Below the pieces are notes generated by a model. The model did no database searches and was not told where the DNA came from. It saw only the letters and a program-made list of their open reading frames with translations. Of a stretch of 33,877 nucleotides of DNA, positions 13,648 to 18,570 are shown one piece after another. Source of the stretch: an uncultured Opitutia bacterium. GTDB taxonomy: Bacteria > Verrucomicrobiota > Verrucomicrobiia > Opitutales > Opitutaceae. How positions within the stretch are numbered: position 1 is the first letter of the stretch; the number at the start of each line of letters is the position of its first letter. The DNA lies in contig CAJAYO010000939.1 of NCBI GenBank assembly GCA_903948415.1, positions 1-33,877 of the forward strand, in the 5' to 3' direction. The translations under genes and the position numbers were made by a program.

Positions 13648-14295
13648 TCAGGAGAGCCGAAAGCTGGGAAGGCAATCGTGCAGGCGGAGGAGGGTCATGG
13701 CGCGGGCTTCGGCGCGGCGCATGAGACGTTTTTTGGCGGGGACGAGGTCGTCGTAGCCGGCGAGGTGGAGCCAGCCGTGGACGAGGTAGAGGGTGAGTTC
13801 GGCGCTGAAGGCGGCCGCGGATTTGAGATCGGAGATTTGAGATTTGAGAGACGGAACGGGCGGACTGACGTGGCGGAGGGCGGCGTCGACGGAGACGCAG
13901 ATTTCGCCGGCGGTGCCGAAGGCCGGGTTGCCCTCGAAGGTGATCACGTCGGTGGGCGTGGGGTCGGCGAGGAAATCGGCGTGGAGCTGGGCGAGAGCGG
14001 CGTCGGTGAGGAAGACGAGGGAGAGTTCGCCGGGCGGGGCGGAGAGGCCGGGCGAAATTTTGGATTTTGGATTTTGGATTTTCGATTCGGCGAAGTGGGC
14101 GTCGAGTAGGTGGATGACGCGCGTGACGGCGCGCCGGTCGAGGCGGAGGCGCGGGTGGTGGTTCGCGAGGGTGATGGAGCGGGCGGGCACGGCGGAGAGA
14201 GCGGTTTCAAGCCAATCCTTGGCACGAGGACGCGAGGCAAGCGGAAAGACGGTGCAAGGGTGGGCGTGGGCAGATTTTGTTTTTGTCTCGGCCAT
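13648..14295 (-). CDS. ybeY: Endoribonuclease YbeY (rRNA maturation)
   Basis: A 215-residue protein from the ATG at 14295. A GTG at 14190 (VPARSITLANHHPRL) gives 180 residues and begins nearer the usual family start. The conserved core is present: ELSLVFLTDAALAQLHADFL, TDVITFEGN, GEICVSVDAA and HGWLHLAGYDD. The expected H-x3-H-x5-H metal site keeps its first two histidines; the third position is Asp, as in some other phyla. YbeY is a metal-dependent RNase acting in 16S rRNA 3' processing and ribosome quality control. Two short insertions, AESKIQNPKSKISP and SLKSQISDLKS, are encoded by AT-rich heptamer repeats (14054-14088 and 13820-13854). Its usual neighbours phoH and pgpH are about 7-8 kb away here, on the same strand. 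Confidence 0.85.
   Translation of the reverse strand: MAETKTKSAHAHPCTVFPLASRPRAKDWLETALSAVPARSITLANHHPRLRLDRRAVTRVIHLLDAHFAESKIQNPKSKISPGLSAPPGELSLVFLTDAALAQLHADFLADPTPTDVITFEGNPAFGTAGEICVSVDAALRHVSPPVPSLKSQISDLKSAAAFSAELTLYLVHGWLHLAGYDDLVPAKKRLMRRAEARAMTLLRLHDCLPSFRLS
13820..13854. repeat. Heptamer array in ybeY (GATTTGA type)
   Basis: Five consecutive 7-bp units: GATTTGA GATCGGA GATTTGA GATTTGA GAGACGG. On the coding strand they encode SLKSQISDLKS, between the GEICVSVDAA and HGWLHLAGYDD motifs. The base composition is far more AT-rich than the gene around it. Confidence 0.8.
14054..14088. repeat. Heptamer array in ybeY (TGGATTT type)
   Basis: Five units: GAAATTT TGGATTT TGGATTT TGGATTT TCGATTC. 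Three are identical. They encode SKIQNPKSKIS in a surface-loop position before the first conserved strand of YbeY. This is a different consensus from the array 200 bp away. Confidence 0.8.
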
Positions 14296-18293: not shown

Positions 18294-18544
18294 GCGCCTG
18301 CGAGCAGGCGGCCTACGGGAGCGCCTGCAAGCAGGCGGCCTACGGGGAGCGGCTGTGAGCAGGCGGCCGACGGGGAGCGCCTGCAAGCAGGCGGCCTACG
18401 GGGAGCGGCTGTGAGCAGGCGGACGACGGGGAGCGCCTGTGAGCAGGCGGACGACGGGGAGCGCCTGCAAGCAGGCGGACGACGGGGAGCGCCTGTGAGC
18501 AGGCGGCCTACGGGGAGCGTCTGTGAGCAGGCGGCCGGCGGGGA
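18294..18544. repeat. Tandem array of nine 28-bp hairpin units
   Basis: Nine head-to-tail units, the first 27 bp and the rest 28 bp, with consensus GCGCCTGCAAGCAGGCGGCCTACGGGGA. Each unit folds as CGCCTGC-AA-GCAGGCG or, with TGTGAG in the centre, CGCCTG-TGAG-CAGGCG. Variants occur at fixed positions (CAA/TGA in the loop, GGCCTACG/GGACGACG in the linker). The array fills most of the 321-bp gap between convergent genes (FAD subunit and pgpH), a typical site for REP-like elements. No T-tract follows, so it is not a classic terminator, although read-through RNA from either side would be highly structured. Confidence 0.9.
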
Positions 18545-18570
18545 GGGTGGGGTTCGCGGAGGCGGGGGGA

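Follow-up and report, generated by a model that had tools for sequence, protein, structure and literature searches.

Two heptamer arrays in the ybeY gene

How did two arrays of 7-bp tandem repeats come to lie, in frame, inside the coding sequence of the endoribonuclease YbeY? The locus was found on a contig of an uncultured Opitutia bacterium (CAJAYO010000939.1), and the whole stretch of 33,877 nucleotides that was analysed is called the window here. The two arrays are probably intragenic, tolerated members of a short dispersed repeat that is resident in the family.

The gene product matched the Pfam family YbeY (PF02130) with E=2e-16 and 60 bits against a cut-off of 25, and the metal-binding motif HGxLHLxGYDH of YbeY here reads HGWLHLAGYDD. 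The third metal-binding histidine (GYDH) is an aspartate (GYDD and similar) in the window and in the family orthologues that were read. As the initial annotation had claimed, ybeY contains two 7-bp arrays encoding SLKSQISDLKS and SKIQNPKSKIS: Tandem Repeats Finder gave a period of 7 for each, and the open reading frame is intact despite both arrays (Table 1). Array 2 is better described as the 33-bp motif than by the Tandem Repeats Finder bounds. The composition is also unlike that of the gene, with a GC content of 37% in array 1 and 28% in array 2 against 65% in ybeY.

Table 1. The ybeY gene and its two heptamer arrays in the window, with the Tandem Repeats Finder (TRF) result for each array.
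Feature	Position	Strand	Description	TRF
ybeY, 215-aa endoribonuclease	13648..14295	minus	ATG at 14295, stop TGA at 13648-13650; HGWLHLAGYDD motif	
Array 1, GATTTGA-GATCGGA-GATTTGA-GATTTGA-GA	13820..13849	plus, antisense to ybeY	SLKSQISDLKS in loop 2, between ICVSVDAALRHV and FSAELTLYLVHG; in frame	period 7, 13820-13849, GATTTGA, 4.3 copies, 82% matches
Array 2, AATTTTG-GATTTTG-GATTTTG-GATTTTC-GATTC, 33 bp	14056..14088	plus, antisense to ybeY	ESKIQNPKSKI in loop 1, between LLDAHF and GELSLVFL; in frame	period 7, 14057-14087, ATTTTGG, 4.4 copies, 95% matches

Array 2 has 20 of 21 lag-7 matches, and since this score was reached by none of 60 window-length and none of 5000 gene-length Markov controls, a chance origin was ruled out. 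The case for array 1 is less strong, with 17 of 21 lag-7 matches and P=0.003 at the gene scale. Its score was reached by 11 of the 60 window-length controls, so we accepted it on kinship and not on its own statistics. Although described at first as two different arrays, the two are flavours of one degenerate unit, GATTTNN, on the same strand, where NN is GA in array 1 and TG or TC in array 2. They are direct to each other and not inverted. An assembly artefact is unlikely; the one-contig genome G012 has the same kind of array in loop 1 of its ybeY.

In an alignment of 13 orthologues both arrays coincided with the two length-variable loops of YbeY, while the HGWLHLAG columns were conserved, which bears out the claim that the arrays keep clear of conserved motifs. 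Loop 1 is flanked by LDAH and GELSLVFL, and loop 2 by ICVSxDxA and FSxELTLYLVHG. A search of solved structures with the single YbeY sequence gave no match; with the family profile five YbeY chains were found, which sufficed for placing the motif but not for a model of the loops.

A search of the genome for both heptamers had been named as a check at annotation. By pattern searches the heptamers are rare at home, the exact TG form being found at one place and the exact GA form at two, and they are abundant in relatives. Degenerate arrays number roughly a dozen in the genome of the window. The exact search detected no second copy of array 2 there, and recent copying is therefore not demonstrable in this genome.

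The GATTTNN unit in relatives and other phyla

Three tandem GATTTNN units were detected in 27 of 57 relatives, mostly from the window's own family, with up to 31 matches per genome and almost all reversed controls at 0. The four-unit match is patchy in the phylum (62 of 289 genomes). Five-unit arrays were found in Cyanobacteria, Chloroflexi, Acidobacteria, Bacteroidetes, Planctomycetes, Deltaproteobacteria, Ignavibacteriae and candidate-phylum genomes.

Among short periods in the relative G010, period 7 gave 53 arrays compared with 0-13 for the others, except for its multiple 14. When every 5-mer was tried as the core in 200 kb of G285, GATTT accounted for 16 of the 19 period-7 triplets. The NN positions in this genome are nearly free (entropy 2.9 of 4 bits), and a single array can read AATTTAC-GATTTAT-GATTTAA-GATTTTT-GATTGCA. 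The flavour of G010 is less varied, mainly TC and TG with GATTCTC as the third unit. The final unit is usually GATTG in both genomes, and five units per array were counted in 29 of 39 arrays of G010 and 15 of 19 of G005. The GATTTNN array is hence degenerate in sequence and almost constant in length, unlike a homogenised microsatellite.

These properties bear on a different origin, in which the arrays would be ordinary simple-sequence repeats that arose locally, in tolerant loops, through replication slippage of 7 nt and without any dispersal of copies. The initial annotation had likened them to the short tandemly repeated repetitive (STRR) sequences of cyanobacteria. They resemble STRR and the TAACTGA repeats of Beggiatoaceae (PMC4679880) in being heptanucleotide tandem units, head to tail, at many sites per genome and patchy across phyla. 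Slippage would also account for the long near-perfect arrays, of up to 24 units, in other phyla, and for a 7-bp step shared by heptamers of different chemistry, among them the CTC and CACTGGT types that occur in these very loops of ybeY. According to work cited in PMC4679880, heptanucleotides are the commonest repeat class in most surveyed genomes, and a polymerase footprint has been put forward. However, STRR and TAACTGA repeats are described as one fixed heptamer, whereas single GATTTNN arrays have five positions fixed and two free and a nearly fixed length. Unit number is mostly 5, and it was unchanged between orthologous arrays of G001, G003, G004 and G008 (flanks about 90-99% identical), at loci other than ybeY, so that the likeness to STRR does not extend to slippage-type variation in unit number. 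Together with the identical mixed 31-mers at unlinked loci (see below), this makes slippage an unlikely origin.

At one other orthologous gene, arrays lie at the same site (L043, G000:C898, and L359, G004:C60) with most units different and with flanks about 80% identical. The difference may come from repeated insertion or from flavour turnover at one site.

Intergenic arrays, hairpins and copying in G010

The arrangement of arrays was best sampled in G010, where genes were called over 780 kb with a simple codon-model gene finder trained on the genome's own long ORFs; the same type of gene finder was used for the other genomes. Of its 39 arrays, 34 were intergenic. All 22 occupied gaps were tandem, i.e. 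between co-directional genes, compared with 72% among all gaps. The GATTT 5' end was close to the gene behind it (median 9 bp) and farther from the one ahead (101 bp), and the arrays read into the gap. Thirteen pairs of arrays face each other, and the typical element of 111 bp consists of an array, a GGAGC..GCTCC hairpin, a spacer, a GCGCG..CGCGC hairpin and an inverted array. Three inverted pairs, of which one is from G010 and two are from other genomes, were found to fold (z of -11.7, -4.0 and -9.3). The arms of the 13 G010 pairs showed no excess covariation (within-element NN match 0.68 compared with 0.73 in shuffled arms), and selection for arm pairing is therefore not claimed.

One 31-mer was present 11 times in G010, and 57 identical pairs were counted against a mean of 8.7 and a maximum of 29 after shuffling. 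This excess of identical 31-mers at unlinked loci indicates that copies have been made within genomes.

Dispersal raises the question whether the arrays are the arms or heads of a REPIN- or MITE-like non-autonomous element that is moved by a REP-associated tyrosine transposase (RAYT). The inverted pairs of G010 with their conserved two-hairpin core and the edge-hugging position between tandem genes would fit such an element, and Y1 transposases were detected in 30 of 38 relatives. In addition, GTAG REPs are numerous in Opitutus terrae, and the intragenic ones are in frame, add 20-30 aa to conserved genes and occur twice in some genes (PMC3733652). The GATTTNN arrays share with REP and REPIN sequences that they are short and dispersed, that dimers fold as hairpins (in relatives) and that in-frame copies lie in conserved genes. 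They differ in being built of heptamers and not of a tagged palindrome, and single arms are common. No array was found within about 1 kb of any of the 16 Y1-transposase loci examined, no GTAG/CGTC tag was noticed beside the arrays, and the presence of transposases does not track that of arrays (G044 has 17 transposase hits and one array match). Movement by a RAYT was therefore considered quite improbable.

Orientation of arrays inside genes

Outside G010, all 43 arrays that overlap coding sequence were AAATC-sense, and three in-gene arrays of G010 agree with this. For the orientation test gene-end cases were removed and array 1, which is below the detection threshold of the array script, was added, giving 42 arrays; if stop codons alone mattered, the bias would have a log10 P of -11.6. 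Stops alone are insufficient, because 23 of the 42 arrays are also open in all three frames of the opposite direction. The mean Kyte-Doolittle value of the unseen direction is +0.88 (hydrophobic), compared with -1.75 for the AAATC-sense, which encodes polar, KSKIQNP-type peptides. The filter that acts inside genes would thus be protein solubility or loop tolerance, selecting against the hydrophobic reading. In-frame arrays, of which there are dozens and almost only in the polar orientation, offer a natural test of non-coding repeats turning into protein segments.

In one 1.5-kb gene of G010 (L120, G010:C4:151453-151563) a complete 111-bp inverted element lies in frame and encodes about 37 residues (IEFSIFDSRFSIGG...SAQSKIENRKSKIPEG), which shows that a gene can occasionally tolerate the hydrophobic half. 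Two arrays in a single gene were also found in G009 (L275), G028 (L008) and G032 (L009), and the double hit in ybeY is therefore not unique.

The ybeY loops across relatives

Loop 1 contains AAATCNN units in seven of 30 YbeY orthologues (G000, G005, G006, G012, G023, G029 and G033), with different letters in each, and it is short in many family members, e.g. AHAAKFRGGCPPG. On a tree of the YbeY core, with the loops removed, the loop-1 array required six changes and was unclustered, 213 of 500 shuffles being as low. With 17 of its 27 branches open, this tree is a weak guide to how many times the array was gained. The nearest relative by YbeY, G007 (83% identical), lacks an array in loop 1, and even a search of its genome that allowed one mismatch found no GATTTNN triplet. 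Its searched congeners have 12-59 matches, which suggests an abrupt loss or absence in G007. In loop 1 of G012 (L086) a second heptamer series, CACTGGT-CACTGGT-CATTGGT-CATT (SLVTGHWS), stands beside the AAATCNN units.

The initial view of both arrays as inserts in ybeY thus agrees with loop 1, where most relatives have a short loop, but the loop-2 insert is genus-wide and not private to this genome. At this position the other members of the genus carry another heptamer, ACTCTCA/NNNCTCA, in the identical 7-bp phase. Loop 2 reads ACTCTCA-GCGCTCG-ACTCTCA-ACTCTCA-GCTCCGC in G007 and TCTCTCA-AATCTCA-AATCTCC-GATCTCA-AATCCGC in G000; most units differ while the phase is kept, indicating that loop 2 is an old heptamer-phased insert. 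Going by these sequences, it is the flavour of loop 2 alone that is particular to this genome, and array 1 may derive from a CTC-type heptamer loop that was already present and then changed, and not from an insertion.

The loops could also be selected features of the protein, for instance basic loops that contact RNA or bind a partner, with the heptamers being incidental. Lysine-rich peptides in an RNase and the recurrence of the loop-1 array in orthologues would suit this idea, but in many relatives the loop is short and lacks such a peptide, and peptides of the KSKIQNP type accompany the DNA array in dozens of other genes. Ordinary loops would be expected to keep the same peptides with non-repetitive codons across the family, whereas the KSKI-type peptides were always encoded by AAATCNN heptamers. 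We regard selected loops as very improbable; the array in YbeY is most likely a tolerated passenger and not a functional part.

The reading as a dispersed repeat resident in the family can be put together as follows. The repeat would be a sequence of about 33 bp with four to five GATTTNN units, each with five fixed and two free positions. Its usual home in G010 is the gaps between co-directional genes, where arrays start beside a gene edge and are often in head-on hairpin pairs. Copies spread within genomes, as the identical 31-mers of G010 show, presumably by means of an enzyme. Those inside genes would survive in surface loops, almost only in the AAATC orientation that gives polar peptides such as KSKIQNP, and would then be inherited vertically with unit number unchanged, as was seen at other loci. 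Since YbeY has two such loops, it would be hit repeatedly.

Comparison with G-rich heptamers

No paper on GATTTNN heptamers or on Opitutaceae heptamers was found in the open-access literature. For the GGGNATC / GGGGA(T/C)T heptamers of Xanthomonas and Nostoc, quadruplex formation has been proposed (Rehm et al. 2015, PMC4692102). Both kinds of repeat have a degenerate 7-bp unit, prefer about four units and are dispersed, with some intragenic copies. They also share the position near gene edges, the co-directional genes and the head-on pairs (common in Xanthomonas), which on the GATTTNN side were seen in G010 and not in the window. In contrast to the GGGNATC heptamers, the GATTTNN core is AT-rich with two free positions, and in some genomes, e.g. 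G009, most sampled GATTTNN arrays are inside genes and in one orientation. The arrays contain no G-runs, whereas a G4-forming array would have four tracts of at least three G, so the G-quadruplex explanation is inapplicable to them. On the comparisons with GGGNATC, REP and STRR sequences, we classed GATTTNN as a dispersed heptamer repeat and not as a REPIN or a G4 repeat.

Bacteria have an excess of heptamer repeats, and there is no consensus on why. As the layout of the AT-rich GATTTNN arrays matches that of the G-rich heptamers, G-quadruplexes are insufficient as a common explanation, and a reader or copier that steps by 7 nt is indicated. A tentative extension, which we consider possible but not probable, is that RATTTNN-(GATTTNN)3-GATTG, about 33 nt long, is a defined motif that is read by its sequence in many phyla and is not a simple repeat, that a reader or copier with a 7-nt step reads five of the seven bases, and that Xanthomonas and Nostoc, with their G-rich heptamers, use a further dialect of one system. 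If so, quadruplex formation would not be the purpose of these elements.

Other short repeats were observed as well. Another heptamer family (AGTCAGG / CTCCTGA) is clustered at several places within 8 kb of G010 (C1:23598-31698), and elsewhere in its sampled contigs a TTCAG repeat with an 8-bp period reached 62 counts. In the window, nine copies of the 28-bp unit GCGCCTGTGAGCAGGCGGCCGACGGGGA lie at 18294-18545 (TRF score 371-413). With CGCCTG..CAGGCG in each unit, the cluster may consist of REP-like palindromes.
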